A DNA stretch of 32,907 nt from Candidatus Omnitrophota bacterium (GTDB lineage: Bacteria; Omnitrophota; Gorgyraeia; JABMSB01): positions 1 to 32,907 of the forward strand of contig JABMSB010000024.1 in assembly GCA_013202205.1 (NCBI GenBank), given 5' to 3'. The notes under the pieces are model-generated. The model made no database searches, was not told the origin of the DNA, and saw only the letters and a list, made by a program, of their open reading frames with translations. Position numbers and translations under genes: made by a program. Positions 25,133 through 32,907 of the stretch are shown here, piece after piece (the first letter of the stretch is position 1; the number at the start of each line of letters is the position of its first letter).

Positions 25133-26398
25133 ATGGACCGCGGCATTGGATCTACTATGAAAAGGACAAAAGCCCTCTACCTCTCTTACGATGGCATACT
25201 GGAACCGTTAGGACAATCACAGATCCTACCTTATCTGAAGGAGTTGTCAAAAAAAGGAATCAGTTTTATCCTGCTCACTTATGAAAAGAAGAGATATTTG
25301 CAGGATAAGAAGATGTTGGCTATGATTTCCCGAGAATTGACAGATCACAATATAAAGTGGTTCAAGCTGCGTTATCATAAGAATCCCCCTTTCTTCTCAA
25401 CGTTATTCGATGGTTTGAGAGGGTTGATATTATCTATATTCATTTTGATTAAAGAAAAGATTATTATAATTCATGCCCGTTCATACGTCTCTACCCTGAT
25501 CGCATTTATCATAAAGAAAGTTTTCGGAACAAAATTTATCTTTGATATGCGCGGTTTCTGGGCCGATGAAAAATTGGATGGGGGAACCTGGAAGGAGAAA
25601 GACCTGCTCTATCGGTTGGTCAAAATTTTGGAAAAACGTTATCTGATATCGGCTGATCGGATAGTTGTCTTAAGCGAAAAAGCCAGAGATTACATCGCGG
25701 ATAATTTCGAACTAAGGGCGAACGTTGTAGTGATACCTTGCGCAGCCGATGCGGAAAAATTTAAGTTTAATTCACACGCGCATCAGGCGCTGCGCAAAAG
25801 ATATTTTATCGAAGAGAAATTCGTCTTTGTGCACGCCGGATCTCTGGAAGGCTGGTATCTGATAGATAGGATGCTCGATTTCTTCGGGGTTGCTAAGGAG
25901 ATTATCGATAGTGCCCACTTTCTTATTTTAACCCATTCCCCTAGAGAGATGTTGGATAAGATGATTGCAGCGAAGAATCTCCGGCCCGAAGATTTTACGG
26001 TAGCTGCCGTCGCTCAGAGCGAAATGCCGGATTATCTTTCCCTTGCTGATGTAGGACTGTTTTTTCTAAAACGCTCTTTTGCCATGAAAGCGGTTTTGCC
26101 CACAAAAGTTGCCGAATATTTAAGCTGCGGCATCCCTATAATTACAAACAGAGGCATCGGAGACCTGGAGGAATGTATCCTGAATAATAATGCGGGAATC
26201 ATCATTGATGGTTTTGCAGAGAGAGAATATAAGAGTGCCTTGCAGGGGGCGCTTGACCTTGTGGCAGATGCAAAGGTTAGAGAAAATTGCCGAAGAACTG
26301 CTCTCGATAATTTTTCGCTCACCGGCGCTGCAGAAAAGTATAATGAGCTGTATTCAGAATTGAGCAACAGGATGTGCGAACATATGGAAGGGCAATAA
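25133..26398 (+). CDS. GT4-type glycosyltransferase
   Basis: ALYLSYDGILEPLGQSQILPYLKELSKKGI, HARSYVSTLIA, FIFDMRGFWADE, ADRIVVLSEKARDYI, PTKVAEYLSCGIPIITNRGIGDLEE. Confidence 0.88.
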   Translation: MDRGIGSTMKRTKALYLSYDGILEPLGQSQILPYLKELSKKGISFILLTYEKKRYLQDKKMLAMISRELTDHNIKWFKLRYHKNPPFFSTLFDGLRGLILSIFILIKEKIIIIHARSYVSTLIAFIIKKVFGTKFIFDMRGFWADEKLDGGTWKEKDLLYRLVKILEKRYLISADRIVVLSEKARDYIADNFELRANVVVIPCAADAEKFKFNSHAHQALRKRYFIEEKFVFVHAGSLEGWYLIDRMLDFFGVAKEIIDSAHFLILTHSPREMLDKMIAAKNLRPEDFTVAAVAQSEMPDYLSLADVGLFFLKRSFAMKAVLPTKVAEYLSCGIPIITNRGIGDLEECILNNNAGIIIDGFAEREYKSALQGALDLVADAKVRENCRRTALDNFSLTGAAEKYNELYSELSNRMCEHMEGQ

Positions 26399-26399
26399 G

Positions 26400-27293
26400 A
26401 TGAGGATACTGATTACCGGCAGCAGTGGTATGCTGGGCAGCGCATTGTGCCCACTGCTATCGGAGCGCAACGACACGATTTTGGCAACTGATATAAATGC
26501 CAATGGTGGTGCCGTATGTTTAGACATAGCGGACATGGAGGGTGTAAAAAAGGTATTCGCGGATTTTGGGCCGGAAGCAGTTTTTCATCTTGCTGCGGTG
26601 ACCGATGTCGATGGATGCGAGATCCAACAAGAAGAGGCATATAGAACCAATACCCTGGGTACGGAGAATATCGTATTCTCCTGTATGAAGCGCGATATCC
26701 CCCTGGTCTATATAAGCACTGCCGCCGTCTTTGACGGCAAAAAGAAGGTGCCATATACTGAATTTGATCTTCCGAATCCGTTGAATGTTTACGCCAAGAC
26801 GAAATTGGAAGGCGAAAGCATCGTCGCAAGGTCCCTAAAGAGATATTTTATCGTACGTGCCGGCTGGATGATCGGGGGTATAGATAAGGATAAGAAGTTC
26901 GTCTCCAAGATCATTAAGCAATTAGATGGCCAAAAGGAGATCTTTGCAGTTGCCGATAAAGTTGGCAGCCTGACCTTTACCAAAGATATCGCAAAAGGCC
27001 TACTCAGTTTAGTAGAGACCGAAAGGTATGGCCTCTACCATATGGCCAATAAAGGCAGTTGTTCGCGCTATGACATTGCGAAGCTGATAGTAAAATTTAT
27101 GGGGCGTGATGATATAGCGGTGACGCCCGCCACCTCTGAAATGTTTCCGCTGCCGGCGCTCAGGCCCGATTTAGAGGCGATAGATAATTTTAAGCTAACC
27201 CTGATGGGAATGAACAATATGCCGACATGGGAAGAGGCATTAGAGGAATATGTCTTCATGGTAAAAAAGAGCAGGGAGCCGGTTGGATTATAA
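26400..27293 (+). CDS. dTDP-4-dehydrorhamnose reductase (RmlD-like SDR)
   Basis: MRILITGSSGMLGSALCPLL, VFHLAAVTDVDGCE, YISTAAVFDGKKKVPYTEFDLPNPLNVYAKTKLEGE. Confidence 0.9.
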   Translation: MRILITGSSGMLGSALCPLLSERNDTILATDINANGGAVCLDIADMEGVKKVFADFGPEAVFHLAAVTDVDGCEIQQEEAYRTNTLGTENIVFSCMKRDIPLVYISTAAVFDGKKKVPYTEFDLPNPLNVYAKTKLEGESIVARSLKRYFIVRAGWMIGGIDKDKKFVSKIIKQLDGQKEIFAVADKVGSLTFTKDIAKGLLSLVETERYGLYHMANKGSCSRYDIAKLIVKFMGRDDIAVTPATSEMFPLPALRPDLEAIDNFKLTLMGMNNMPTWEEALEEYVFMVKKSREPVGL

Positions 27294-27353: not shown

Positions 27354-28295
27354 ATGCAAAATAGGCCGCAAAAAACGCCATACGAGGTTAGCTATATAAA
27401 ATGCAAGGTTTGCGGCAAGGACGATTTTAAGTTCTTAGGTCTGAGAGGAAATTTGGAGTATCTTGGCGCGCCTGCCCTTGAGCCTGGCAAGCCGCATATG
27501 ATTACCAATGTGGTTAGGTGTAAGAGATGCGGTTTTGTCTATACCAACCCTTATGTTGTATCCGAAGAAGGGAAGGATTTTTACAGCGACCCTGATCAAT
27601 ACAGATCGTCCTGCAGCGCAAAAGAAGAAGAGATGTTCAAAGAGACACTCTCGCTTATTAACAGAATCGCGACTAAAGGTAAGCTCTTAGACATAGGTTG
27701 CGGAAAAGGGGAATTTTTGGCCCTTGCCAAAGAGTCAGGTTGGGAGGCGTGCGGCGTTGAGACATCCGGCGGACTTGCTGATTATTCACGAAAGAGATAC
27801 GACCTCAAGATAGAGAATGTGCCGCTGGAAAAGGTTAAATACCCAGATAAGCACTTTGATATTATCACGCTCAATATGGTGTTGGAACATATAGATGAAC
27901 CCAATGATCTGATAAAGGAGGTTTATAGAATATCGAAGGAGGATGGCGCGGTCATTATTGAGGTACCGAACACCAATAGCCTTCTTCTAAAGGCGATACG
28001 AATCTTTTTTTTAATAAGGGGTAAAAACTGGTCGCCCCTATTGTCTCCTTTGCATAAACCATACCATACTTACGGATACTCAAACCATACATTGAGGTTT
28101 TTACTTAACAGCCATAATTTCAAAATTGTCAAAGTGATAAACGGCAGTCTCTTCAACAGAGGATTGGGCAAAAGGCCCGAGGTAAATGGGTTATTAAGGA
28201 TGGGGGGCCTCTTTACAACCTTTCTCGGAGCAACGATTGGAATGGGAGATGTAATAACGGTAATCGCCAAAAAGAGAAGAAAAAATCCGAAATGA
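27354..28295 (+). CDS. Class I SAM-dependent methyltransferase with N-terminal zinc-binding motif
   Basis: CKVCG...CKRCGFVYTNPYV N-terminal cysteines, SAM motif LLDIGCGKGEFLALAKESGWEACGVE, and ITLNMVLEHIDEPNDLIKEVYRI. Confidence 0.9.
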   Translation: MQNRPQKTPYEVSYIKCKVCGKDDFKFLGLRGNLEYLGAPALEPGKPHMITNVVRCKRCGFVYTNPYVVSEEGKDFYSDPDQYRSSCSAKEEEMFKETLSLINRIATKGKLLDIGCGKGEFLALAKESGWEACGVETSGGLADYSRKRYDLKIENVPLEKVKYPDKHFDIITLNMVLEHIDEPNDLIKEVYRISKEDGAVIIEVPNTNSLLLKAIRIFFLIRGKNWSPLLSPLHKPYHTYGYSNHTLRFLLNSHNFKIVKVINGSLFNRGLGKRPEVNGLLRMGGLFTTFLGATIGMGDVITVIAKKRRKNPK

Positions 28296-29371
28296 AGATC
28301 CTTTTTATCACGCCACACCCCGATGAAGGTGCAAGTACCCGCTACAGGGCAAGGCAGTTTTTTTCATATTTCAATTCCATGGGGATTGAGTGTCTCTTCA
28401 GCCCATTTCTCTCTTCACAGGATTATAATATATTGTACAAGAGGGGGCGGTTGGCACAGAAGGCCTTTACGCTGCCAAAAGGCGTTGCTCGCCGTTTAGG
28501 TGATGTGATAAGAAGCCGCAGCGTGGACATTGTCTTTATACATCTAGAGGCCTGGCCTGTGGGCCTGGCGATATTTGAAAGGTTCTTCGGGCTTTGCAAA
28601 AAACCGATTATATATGATCTCGATGATGCGATATACATGAAGGCATCCAGTTCCGTAAATAGAGTGGCCTCCTTCCTTAAGAATCCGGGCAAGATACCTA
28701 CGATTATAGAGATGAGCGATCATGTAATAACATGTAATGACCATCTCAGACGATATGCCAGCGAGTTCAATAAGAACGTTACGATGATACCCACTTCAGT
28801 CGATACAAATAAATTCACCGTTAGAGACTATAGCCTCAATGGCGGCAGAAAGCCGGTTATCGGATGGATAGGGTCGCATTCAACAGCCCTGTATCTTAAG
28901 CAGCTGAGAGAAGTATTTAAACAGTTGGCTGAAAAACATGACTTTGTTTTGAAAATCGTTGGAGCAGCAGAGCGCGATCATTTTCCAGGCATAGATACTA
29001 TCTATAGCGACTGGTCACTAAAGAAAGATATTGCAGAATTTCAGGACCTGGATATAGGGATATATCCTTTGCCGGATAATGAATGGGTAAAGGGTAAGAC
29101 CGGTTTTAAGACAGTCCAATATATGGCAGCAGGGGTCCCATGCGTTGTCTCGCGGGTGGGCAGAAATATAGAGATTGTAAAGAATAGGGTAAATGGGTTT
29201 TTGGCATCCTCACAGCAGGAATGGATCGACAGGCTTTCTTGTTTGATAGAAAACCCCAAACTCCGGGAAGAGATAGGTCTTGCCGGCAGAAAGACCGTTG
29301 AAGAAAAATTTTCAATAAAAGTAAATGGACCGAAATATATAGAGGTATTTAATAAGGTTTACGATGGTTAA
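28292..29371 (+). CDS. GT4-like glycosyltransferase (paralogue A)
   Basis: ILFITPHPDEGASTRYRARQFF, IGWIGSHSTALYLKQL, GFKTVQYMAAGVPCVVSRVGRNIEIV. ATGA overlap with the upstream gene. Confidence 0.88.
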   Translation: MKILFITPHPDEGASTRYRARQFFSYFNSMGIECLFSPFLSSQDYNILYKRGRLAQKAFTLPKGVARRLGDVIRSRSVDIVFIHLEAWPVGLAIFERFFGLCKKPIIYDLDDAIYMKASSSVNRVASFLKNPGKIPTIIEMSDHVITCNDHLRRYASEFNKNVTMIPTSVDTNKFTVRDYSLNGGRKPVIGWIGSHSTALYLKQLREVFKQLAEKHDFVLKIVGAAERDHFPGIDTIYSDWSLKKDIAEFQDLDIGIYPLPDNEWVKGKTGFKTVQYMAAGVPCVVSRVGRNIEIVKNRVNGFLASSQQEWIDRLSCLIENPKLREEIGLAGRKTVEEKFSIKVNGPKYIEVFNKVYDG

Positions 29372-29475
29372 CAAGCGACCGAAAGAAAAGATTCTGCCCA
29401 GGAGCACTTCGCTGCGAATTTTATTTTGCGTTATGATTTCATTTAGTATAATGGTACCGTTTTTGCCAGTGGAGT
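29204..29475 (+). repeat. Direct repeat copy A (GT 3' end plus truncated start of downstream membrane-protein gene)
   Basis: Gapless match to 31544-31815 at a constant offset of 2,340 nt; 231/272 identical by hand count. Confidence 0.9.
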
Positions 29476-29501
29476 CTGTGATACCATATAAAAGAGGGTA
29501 A
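29364..29501 (+). pseudogene. Truncated remnant (45 codons) of the membrane-protein gene that starts at 31704
   Basis: MVNKRPKEKILPRSTSLRILFCVMISFSIMVPFLPVESVIPYKRG* against MINKRFKEKILPRSTSLRILFYVMISFSILVPFLPMEY... at 31704. Below the ORF-track length cutoff. Confidence 0.8.
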
Positions 29502-29504
29502 CAT

Positions 29505-30611
29505 ATGATACCAGTTGCAAGGCCTACTCTAGGTAAAGAGGAGATAAAAAACATTGAGAAAATTTGTAAAACCGGCTGGCTCGGTATGGGCAGTTTGGTA
29601 TTTGAATTCGAAAATGTTCTTAAGAAGATGTTTGGCAGAAAACACGCTATTTGTGTAAACACGGGGACCGCTGCTATCCATATTGCCTTAGCCGCATCAG
29701 GTATCGGCCGAGGGGATGAGGTAATAGTTCCGTCGCTCACCTTTGCGGGGACCATTCAGCCGATTCTTTCGTGTGGTGCGCGGCCCGTTTTCTGTGATAT
29801 AGAGTTAGAGGACCTGAATTTGAGTATGGACCACCTTAAGAGGCTTCTCACCAAGAAGACAAAGGCTATATTGCCTGTCCACTACGGCGGTGTTCCCTGT
29901 AACATGGATTTGATATTACGGATTGCCAGAAAAGATGGTCTTAGGGTTATCGAGGACGCAGCGCATGCGTTTGGGTCCGAATATAAGAATCGGCTCATAG
30001 GCTCTTTCGGCGATATTGCTTGTTTTAGCTTTGACCCCATAAAAACTATAAGCTGCGGGGAAGGGGGGGCAGTCGTTTTAGATGATGATGAATGCGCTCA
30101 AAAGATAACAAAAATGCGCATTCTTGGCATCGATAAGGATACATGGAATCGATACCATCAAAAGCGAAGCTGGTTATACGAGGTGCAGATGGAGGGTTAC
30201 CGGTACCATATGAGTAATATAAATGCCGCTATAGGGCTTGCGCAGATCAAGAAATTTAAGGTATTCAAAAAAAGACGGCAAGATATTGCCAAGTTTTACG
30301 ATAAGGAGCTTTCAAGGCTCAAGCATATAAGAATTCTAAGGCATGACTTAGAATCGACAGTCCCGTTTAATTACACGATTTTGGCCGACAAGAGAGATCT
30401 CCTTATGCATTTTCTTAAAACTAAAGGTATAGTTACGGCGATAAACTATATACCAAATCATATTCAGCCGTTCTTCCGCAGAAAAAGGGTAGCCTTGCCG
30501 AATACCGACTTTGCGTATAATAGAATAATCGGTATCCCTCTCTATAGCTCATTGTCCATAAACGAAGCGCGTTTTGTTGTTGGATCTATTAAGGAATTTT
30601 ATAAAAGGTGA
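29505..30611 (+). CDS. DegT/DnrJ/EryC1 family PLP-dependent sugar aminotransferase
   Basis: MIPVARPTLGKEEIKNIEKICKTGWLGMG, CVNTGTAAIHIALAASGIGRGDEVIVPSLTFAGT, VIEDAAHAFGSEY, SFDPIKTISCGEGGAVV with the PLP Lys position. Confidence 0.95.
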   Translation: MIPVARPTLGKEEIKNIEKICKTGWLGMGSLVFEFENVLKKMFGRKHAICVNTGTAAIHIALAASGIGRGDEVIVPSLTFAGTIQPILSCGARPVFCDIELEDLNLSMDHLKRLLTKKTKAILPVHYGGVPCNMDLILRIARKDGLRVIEDAAHAFGSEYKNRLIGSFGDIACFSFDPIKTISCGEGGAVVLDDDECAQKITKMRILGIDKDTWNRYHQKRSWLYEVQMEGYRYHMSNINAAIGLAQIKKFKVFKKRRQDIAKFYDKELSRLKHIRILRHDLESTVPFNYTILADKRDLLMHFLKTKGIVTAINYIPNHIQPFFRRKRVALPNTDFAYNRIIGIPLYSSLSINEARFVVGSIKEFYKR

Positions 30612-31711
30612 GCATGAGTATCTTATTTGTGATATCGGGAACCCACCGTGTAGCAGCTTCGCGTTACCGCGTTTACCAATATCTACCGTATCTCGAATCA
30701 CAAGGGACGAGATATAGGGTTTTTTCTACCATCAGCGATTTTATGACCGTACTTTCGATACGCTCTCCTGAATTTAACAGTATAACGAGGTCTATTTATT
30801 ACCTCTTGTTGTTCATAGAGCGGTTTTTCCGCTTTTGGGTAGTTTTTATTGCGGCAGGGCGTTATGATGTACTCTTTTTACAGAGGGCAATATTTCCATT
30901 TGGCCTGGCGAGATTGTTGCCCCTCAGGAATAAGAATATCATTTTTGATATTGATGATGCCATTTTTCTCCCGGATACACAAGATAGGAATCCGATGACA
31001 ACCTTTAAAGCATTTGTGAAAAAGCGGGAGGTGCGGGATAGCTTGGATATAAGCAGCTGTGTCATTGTGGAAAATGATTATATTAAGGAATATGTTTCGA
31101 AATATTGCCAGGATGTTTTTAAGATACAGGGCCCCATCGATACAACGAGGTATTTTGTTGCCCCTGACAAATATAGAGAGGAGAAGGACGAAATAATCCT
31201 CGGGTGGATCGGCTCTCCCGGGACAACGCCCTATCTTTCCATATTAAACGGTGTTTTTAGAGAGATCCTCTTTCGATTCCAAAATGTCAAGATAGTGCTG
31301 GTGGGAGTCGGAAACTATAGCTTTCCAAGCGATAAGGTTATTAAGAAAAAATGGGGTTATGATACGGAAGTGGAAGAGCTTCAACGGTTTGATATCGGTC
31401 TTATGCCTATGTTCGATGATGAATGGACAAGGGGAAAGCTTGGATGTAAGATGCTGCAGTACATGGCGGTAGGCGCTGCCTCTGTCGTCTCTTATACACC
31501 GACGAATGCCGAGATTGTAACTAGCGGTGAAAACGGATTCTTCGCATCCTCAGAGCAGGAATGGATCGACGGGCTTTCTCGCCTGATCGAAAACCCTAAG
31601 CTCAGGGAAGAGATCGGCCTTGCCGGCAGAAAGACTGTTGAGCAAAAATGTTCGGTACGAGTAAATATCCCGAAATATATGGAAGTATTTAAGAAGGTTT
31701 ACAATGATTAA
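30608..31711 (+). CDS. GT4-like glycosyltransferase (paralogue B)
   Basis: ILFVISGTHRVAASRYRVYQYLPYL, LGWIGSPGTTPYLSIL, LGCKMLQYMAVGAASVVSYTPTNAEIV. ATGA overlap with the aminotransferase. Last 55 residues nearly match paralogue A. Confidence 0.87.
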   Translation: MSMSILFVISGTHRVAASRYRVYQYLPYLESQGTRYRVFSTISDFMTVLSIRSPEFNSITRSIYYLLLFIERFFRFWVVFIAAGRYDVLFLQRAIFPFGLARLLPLRNKNIIFDIDDAIFLPDTQDRNPMTTFKAFVKKREVRDSLDISSCVIVENDYIKEYVSKYCQDVFKIQGPIDTTRYFVAPDKYREEKDEIILGWIGSPGTTPYLSILNGVFREILFRFQNVKIVLVGVGNYSFPSDKVIKKKWGYDTEVEELQRFDIGLMPMFDDEWTRGKLGCKMLQYMAVGAASVVSYTPTNAEIVTSGENGFFASSEQEWIDGLSRLIENPKLREEIGLAGRKTVEQKCSVRVNIPKYMEVFKKVYND

Positions 31712-31815
31712 CAAGAGATTTAAAGAAAAGATTCTGCCCAGGAGTACTTCGCTGAGAATTTTATTTTATGTTATGATCTCGTTTAGCATATTGGTACCGT
31801 TTTTGCCGATGGAGT
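31544..31815 (+). repeat. Direct repeat copy B (GT 3' end plus intact start of membrane-protein gene)
   Basis: Gapless match to 29204-29475, offset 2,340 nt. Confidence 0.9.
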
Positions 31816-32907
31816 ACCTTTGCCCACTGCTGATAATTGCTTTAGGAGTTATGTTTAGTATTATTATCTATTTTATGGAGTTGGAAAATAAAGGCCGAAT
31901 ATTAGCCCTGTTTAATGTAGCATTTTTATTGAGAATTATCTTCTCCGTAATTCTTTACCATGTGTCATATTTTATTACCCAGGGGCCCCATGATGTTTGG
32001 TATCAGAGGCCACGTTTGGTGCCGGGCTATTTCATTGGAGATGGTATGGCATATGGAACGAACGGTCTCTTGATGGCCAAGTACTGGAACGCTGGGTACG
32101 CGCCTGGGTGGGAATGGTTCAGAGGTAAGAGCATATCAGGCACAGTATCTAACTACGATTACTTTAATGGTCATGTATTTCATTTCGGCGGTTATAATCC
32201 ACTGACCATATTTTTCATAAATTCTCTTTGTGGTGCATTGTCTGTGGTCTTAGTCTATGCTATCGCCAAGCACCTCTTTGGCAGGAGAGCCGCTCTATTG
32301 AGCGGATGGTTTGCGGTCTTCTGCCCATCCCTTATCCTCTGGTCAAGTCAGAACCTGAAAGAGCCCATAGTAATTTTGTCAAGCCTATTAACGATATGGT
32401 CAATTATATCTATTTGGAATAATTTTCGTTTCAGATATTTATTCACGATGATTGCTTCCATGGTTGTGTTGGCTTCGATCAGGTTCTTTGTGGTCCCAAT
32501 CCTGATTTTTTCATTTTTTTTCGCGATCATCATCAGTGTCAATAAGGCCAACCTCAAAGCGCATCTTTTTTTTCGTGTGGTAATCGCCGCACTTTTGATA
32601 TATTTTGGCGGTAATTTTCTTCGTTCAGCTATTCAGAAAATGACGTCAATAGATATATTTAATATGGAAGGGATGTGCGGGATATTGAGCGCATACAGGG
32701 GTTACAGGTCTAAAGGCAGCCTATCCTTTTTCTCCGGAACAGATCTGACTACGCCGCTAAAAGTATTATTTTTTGTGCCAATGGGATTCATATATGTATT
32801 ATTCTCACCCTTTCCATGGCAGATTGGATCTATTTCCCAGGTCATGGCTGTGCCAGAGATGATAGCATGGTATATACTAATCCCGAAGATGCTAAAAGGT
32901 GTGAGGA
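31704..32907 (+). CDS. Polytopic membrane protein, possibly a GT39-like glycosyltransferase (3'-truncated by window edge)
   Basis: The frame is open from the ATG at 31704 to the window end (checked codon by codon, 401 codons), so it is missing from the ORF track. Many hydrophobic helices and a LILWSSQNLKEPIVILSSLL segment. The family call is tentative. Confidence 0.75.
   Translation, partial: MINKRFKEKILPRSTSLRILFYVMISFSILVPFLPMEYLCPLLIIALGVMFSIIIYFMELENKGRILALFNVAFLLRIIFSVILYHVSYFITQGPHDVWYQRPRLVPGYFIGDGMAYGTNGLLMAKYWNAGYAPGWEWFRGKSISGTVSNYDYFNGHVFHFGGYNPLTIFFINSLCGALSVVLVYAIAKHLFGRRAALLSGWFAVFCPSLILWSSQNLKEPIVILSSLLTIWSIISIWNNFRFRYLFTMIASMVVLASIRFFVVPILIFSFFFAIIISVNKANLKAHLFFRVVIAALLIYFGGNFLRSAIQKMTSIDIFNMEGMCGILSAYRGYRSKGSLSFFSGTDLTTPLKVLFFVPMGFIYVLFSPFPWQIGSISQVMAVPEMIAWYILIPKMLKGVR

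Follow-up and report, generated by a model that had tools for sequence, protein, structure and literature searches.

The surface-polysaccharide gene cluster of an uncultured Candidatus Omnitrophota bacterium (Gorgyraeia; JABMSB01) holds two predicted sugar modules one after the other, and the second lies between two direct copies of a 285 bp stretch in which the end of a glycosyltransferase (GT) gene runs into the start of a membrane-protein gene. We think it probable that this arrangement is the scar of a modular recombination, in which an incoming, diverged segment of the DegT/GT-B/PMT type was joined to the resident cluster at a junction that both shared. The window, meaning the whole stretch of DNA analysed here, is 32,907 nucleotides long and comprises positions 1–32,907 of contig JABMSB010000024.1 from the MAG GCA_013202205.1. 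The genome collection was searched for closer relatives and for an allele without the DegT/GT-B insert; it gave no close match to the locus, and the relatives used for comparison are related at the level of the class only.

The cluster is an exopolysaccharide/LPS-type polysaccharide gene cluster. Besides the genes of the window described below, all on the forward strand, it encodes an RmlA-like protein, RmlB, an RmlC-like cupin and nucleotide-sugar dehydrogenases, as well as an SLBB export protein and a Wzz-like chain regulator, both judged from sequence only. A GT4-family glycosyltransferase gene (25133–26398; Pfam and gene order), which in relatives precedes either of two alternative modules, is followed here by module A. 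This module consists of RmlD, a dTDP-4-dehydrorhamnose reductase (26400–27293; TIGR01214, 238 bits against a cut-off of 224), a SAM methyltransferase (27354–28295; Pfam) and the GT4-family glycosyltransferase GT-A (28292–29371; Pfam and a tree of the enzyme body). The methyltransferase matches the module-A methyltransferase of one relative (G061) at 47% and those of module B at about 30%, and the closest GT-A orthologue, in G044, is 64% identical. Module B comprises a DegT/DnrJ/EryC1 sugar aminotransferase (DegT; 29505–30611; Pfam) and a second GT4-family glycosyltransferase, GT-B (30608–31711). The last gene codes for a PMT_2-family membrane protein (PMT; 31704–32907; Pfam, PF13231) and is cut at its 3′ end by the end of the contig. 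Positions 32777–32907 are an exact 131-base overlap with contig C93 of the same MAG (L048:1–131), at which the assembly graph branches. On contig C93 the remainder of the PMT gene is followed by a GT gene (TIGR03088-like), an epimerase gene and the gene for a 597-residue WecA/WbaP-like protein (L048:2583–4376), which resembles initiating sugar transferases. The first half of this protein matches WecA/MraY-type transferase models and the second half the nucleotide-binding region of EPS sugar transferases, an unusual combination.

BLASTN of the window against itself returns a single match, between 29191–29475 and 31531–31815: 285 bp in direct orientation, gapless, 84.2% identical and at an offset of 2,340 (E = 2e-75). 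The first-pass annotation had counted 231 identities in 272 positions between 29204–29475 and 31544–31815; our recount gives the same figure, and BLASTN lengthens the pair to 285 bp. Throughout the MAG these are the only two copies, and in a scan of gapless segments the offset of 2,340 scores 171, against a maximum of 16 across about 2,800 other offsets. Each copy spans the final 58 codons of a GT gene, the ATGRTTAA in which its stop overlaps the following start, and codons 1–37 of a PMT gene, and thus has the contents that the earlier annotation had assigned to both; the tail is that of GT-A in the left copy and that of GT-B in the right. Near 29200, inside the GT genes, identity declines from 51/60 to 32/60 (from 85% to about 53%), and at the right edge, 29475, it falls abruptly to background (at most 18/60). 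The longest exact match between the copies is 23 bp. In base composition the insert does not stand out, so that a foreign source would not be visible by this measure.

To judge from their sequences, GT-A and GT-B are not recent duplicates. Their bodies are 28% identical as proteins and their tails 78%, and the fraction of identical third positions in codons for shared residues is 0.51 for the bodies, which is near saturation, and 0.74 for the tails. In the tree of the bodies, GT-A groups with the G044 enzyme (support 99) and GT-B with clade B, represented by G107 and G147 (support 97), while the split between clades A and B has a support of 100. The two enzymes had first been taken for a simple paralogous pair generated by partial duplication; this does not agree with bodies from separate clades that occur in alternative modules. 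What stands of the proposed ancestral GT–membrane-protein pair is that a homologous GT-tail/PMT-head junction brackets DegT and a GT. Because the bodies belong to these separate clades, and because only the tails match and look GT-A-like, the best reading of GT-B is that it is a natural chimera, with a module-B body and a tail of different history.

A GT-A-type source for the last 58 residues of GT-B is preferred, although not proven. The tail pair reaches 59–61% to the best members of clade A and at most 50% to members of clade B, and of the five outside DNA matches to the left repeat copy, four fall in GTs of the A type. By profile scores the GT-A tail favours A; the GT-B tail scores about equally on the A and B profiles and retains one residue typical of clade B (the Cys in KCS). 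Among constrained trees of the tail, the best one places the pair with A, and an AU test on the 59-residue tail rejects neither the vertical placement (p = 0.10) nor a placement on the B side (p = 0.20). In an unconstrained tail tree of 43 rows, the alignment was too short to position the pair, and better trees escaped the quick search. In the AlphaFold model of GT-B (pLDDT 91), the exchanged part corresponds to the last strand and three C-terminal helices, and since the model is confident through the tail the chimera should fold. Both GT-A and GT-B score above the cut-off of PF00534 (Glycos_transf_1), and the GT-B model has a GT4-type fold (the fold that is likewise called GT-B), its best Foldseek matches being BshA, GlgM and PglA.

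In the class relatives, the gene after the common GT4 gene opens either module A, with RmlD and GT-A, or module B, with DegT and GT-B and in some cases a preceding methyltransferase. RmlD–GT-A is found in 11 loci, some of which have a methyltransferase gene or a different gene between the two, and DegT–GT-B in six, often with a methyltransferase before DegT; the window is the sole locus seen with both. The alternation separates L128, L130 and L132 from L051–L053 and L134–L142. Seven genomes carry clade B and none of the seven carries clade A, a mutual exclusion that is not significant at these numbers. Among the relatives seen, GT-A is nowhere followed directly by a close homologue of the window's PMT, and no intermediate or donor arrangement was found in close relatives. 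The single-contig assembly G067 has two distant DegT–GT-B pairs, L131 (C1:943000–962000) and L132 (C1:1105000–1124000); in the former the DegT reading frame is shortened to 248 residues, and tandem direct repeats of about 159 bp (86–89%) surround the start of a 1,391-residue reading frame (L131:14575–15146). A related GT gene in a Bacteroidota MAG has two direct repeats next to it, of 122 bp (94%) and 80 bp (95%) (L064:130–4479).

The PMT head of the left copy survives as a relic ORF of 45 codons (29364–29501), which in translation matches PMT residues 1–41 at 80%. Its 37 PMT-head codons run into eight unrelated in-frame codons (SVIPYKRG) and a TAA, and 3 nt separate it from the start of DegT. 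These eight codons might have come from the end of a module-B methyltransferase, but a comparison by eye of the 29 bases upstream of DegT with methyltransferase gene ends showed a likeness too weak to support this. The synonymous divergence of the copies (dS) amounts to 0.67 for the GT tail and 0.52 for the PMT head; the corresponding dN/dS values are 0.16 and 0.15, the latter including the relic, and have bootstrap intervals well below 1. For the PMT head and relic the 95% interval is 0.03–0.44, with 15 differences in 36 codons. These values suggest that both copies of the junction diverged under purifying selection, the relic included. As the substitutions in the relic look constrained, the split of the junctions is probably older than the truncation of the first PMT copy, although the test is a modest one, and this order favours either the arrival of a diverged segment or a complete module of greater age.

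The same data bear on a purely local origin, in which the insertion of DegT and GT-B was accompanied by a duplication, on the spot, of the GT-A tail and the PMT head, and the relic has evolved neutrally ever since. Such a partial duplication would explain the geometry within one genome as well as the GT-A-like tail of GT-B. It would nevertheless leave a relic that decays neutrally, and the dN/dS of 0.15 is not what is expected of one, at the moderate power of this comparison. In simulations of a neutral relic, so few amino-acid changes arose in 0.2–6% of runs depending on the transition/transversion (ts/tv) parameter: P was 0.006–0.016 at a value of 2, 0.024–0.037 at 4 and 0.034–0.059 at 8, or about 1–4% at the likeliest values (2–4). 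Stops would be expected in 15–40% of the runs for a relic that had been neutral since the split. The pattern of divergence thus argues moderately against local partial duplication followed by decay, and we regard this origin as unlikely. Quite unlikely, too, is an origin from older tandem modules, in which two full-length GT–PMT pairs had long been present in one genome and a later deletion took away most of the first PMT, reaching to just before DegT. Constrained divergence that is alike in both copies, and a relic that continues in frame into the eight codons preceding DegT, would follow from such a history; however, two complete pairs were seen in no relative among the sampled loci, and a prior event would still be needed for the GT-A-like tail of GT-B.

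In the reading that we prefer, that of an incoming segment, the resident cluster would have carried module A, and a segment with DegT, GT-B and PMT would have arrived from a diverged lineage. The 3′ end of GT-B may have been GT-A-like before arrival, or may have been made so by the joining. One homologous exchange would have taken place at the common GT-tail/PMT-head junction, and at the other end a joint lacking homology would have formed after codon 37 of the first PMT copy, thereby truncating or displacing that copy. The product would be module A, a truncated PMT head, DegT, the chimeric GT-B and an intact PMT head, with the 285 bp repeat at the flanks; a circularised fragment and a single crossover would yield exactly this geometry. 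The insert does lie between direct copies of one homologous stretch, as in Campbell-type insertion-duplication. Its right end is a homologous joint of GT tail and PMT head, as homology-facilitated illegitimate recombination requires. At its left end the copies share no homology across the joint 29475/29476. The donor, the type of crossover, the direction of the tail exchange and the sugars are our inferences from these features.

These are known recombination processes, and the case is a fairly ordinary one rather than a new kind of system. In O-antigen and capsule clusters, glycosyltransferase and sugar-synthesis genes are replaced as modules. The locus described here would be similar in that a sugar-nucleotide enzyme and its transferase moved together into a cluster whose frame is conserved; it differs in that both modules coexist and the presumably acquired transferase has resident-like C-terminal helices. 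A literature search found no report of partial GT duplications in O-antigen clusters. In E. coli, fragments that were trimmed, re-circularised and integrated by a single crossover leave duplications of 109–950 bp (PMC3240628). As in that system, putatively foreign DNA stands between direct copies of a homologous stretch, one copy adjoins a truncated gene, and both the 285 bp and the geometry match; the E. coli case is, however, a laboratory assay with identical homology (PMC3240628), whereas here the copies differ at 16% of their positions and the presumed event lies far in the past. Homology-facilitated illegitimate recombination has also been proposed for the T6SS effector/immunity arrays of Vibrio cholerae, where a module anchors at a conserved stretch, its other end is illegitimate and remnants of resident genes are left, much as at this locus (PMC5361080). 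In those arrays resident sequence is displaced, but here the resident GT-A is whole and the junction is duplicated.

A further question is whether the repeat has a role today. A deletion between the copies would, as the first-pass annotation supposed, be clean: the copies are in phase, and an intact hybrid GT-A of 359 codons and the full PMT would be left in frame. Such excision by recombination would nonetheless be rare, owing to the 84% identity and the longest exact run of 23 bp. It is very unlikely, in our estimate, that the repeat and the 45-codon remnant are maintained as functional, the remnant coupling translation from GT-A to DegT and the repeat allowing gain and loss of the aminosugar module in the population; if true, an uncultured phylum would have a glycan switch based on homology. 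The related idea that the repeats are kept so that RecA excises or exchanges the DegT/GT-B cassette, and so varies the surface glycan, accounts for direct, in-phase copies with an intact deletion product, but seems highly improbable: the copies are far from near-identical, the excised junction is absent from the MAG, no recombinase was recognised in the neighbouring reading frames, and the polysaccharide-locus stretches sampled from class relatives show no similar flanking repeats. A chimera of two strains' loci from assembly or binning is scarcely credible, for although the locus ends at an assembly branch where contig C6 overlaps C93, the joint 29475/29476 lies within continuous sequence and the longest exact run is far below the assembler's evident overlap length, so that a misjoin at the repeat is hardly possible, as the identity of about 85% had already suggested in the earlier annotation.

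The two modules would probably draw on one precursor. RmlA and RmlB, encoded upstream, would make dTDP-4-keto-6-deoxyglucose, from which RmlD and the RmlC-like epimerase would form dTDP-rhamnose; GT-A, presumed to be a rhamnosyltransferase, would add rhamnose or a related sugar. DegT is nearest to the PseC/ArnB type (PDB 1mdo, ArnB, E = 1.5e-74), with all NCBIfam matches below cut-off and no single equivalog assignable. It appears to belong to the 4-aminotransferase group. It would divert a 4-keto sugar nucleotide, probably dTDP-4-keto-6-deoxyglucose, to an aminosugar that GT-B would add. Module A is thus predicted to supply a deoxysugar and module B an aminosugar.

The locus offers a readable example of a surface-polysaccharide cluster gaining a second sugar module. 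That the last strand and three helices are common to enzymes which are otherwise 28% identical bears on the tolerance of GT4 enzymes to swaps. Moreover, Omnitrophota clusters repeatedly carry either module A or module B at the same position, which could make the type of glycan easier to predict.
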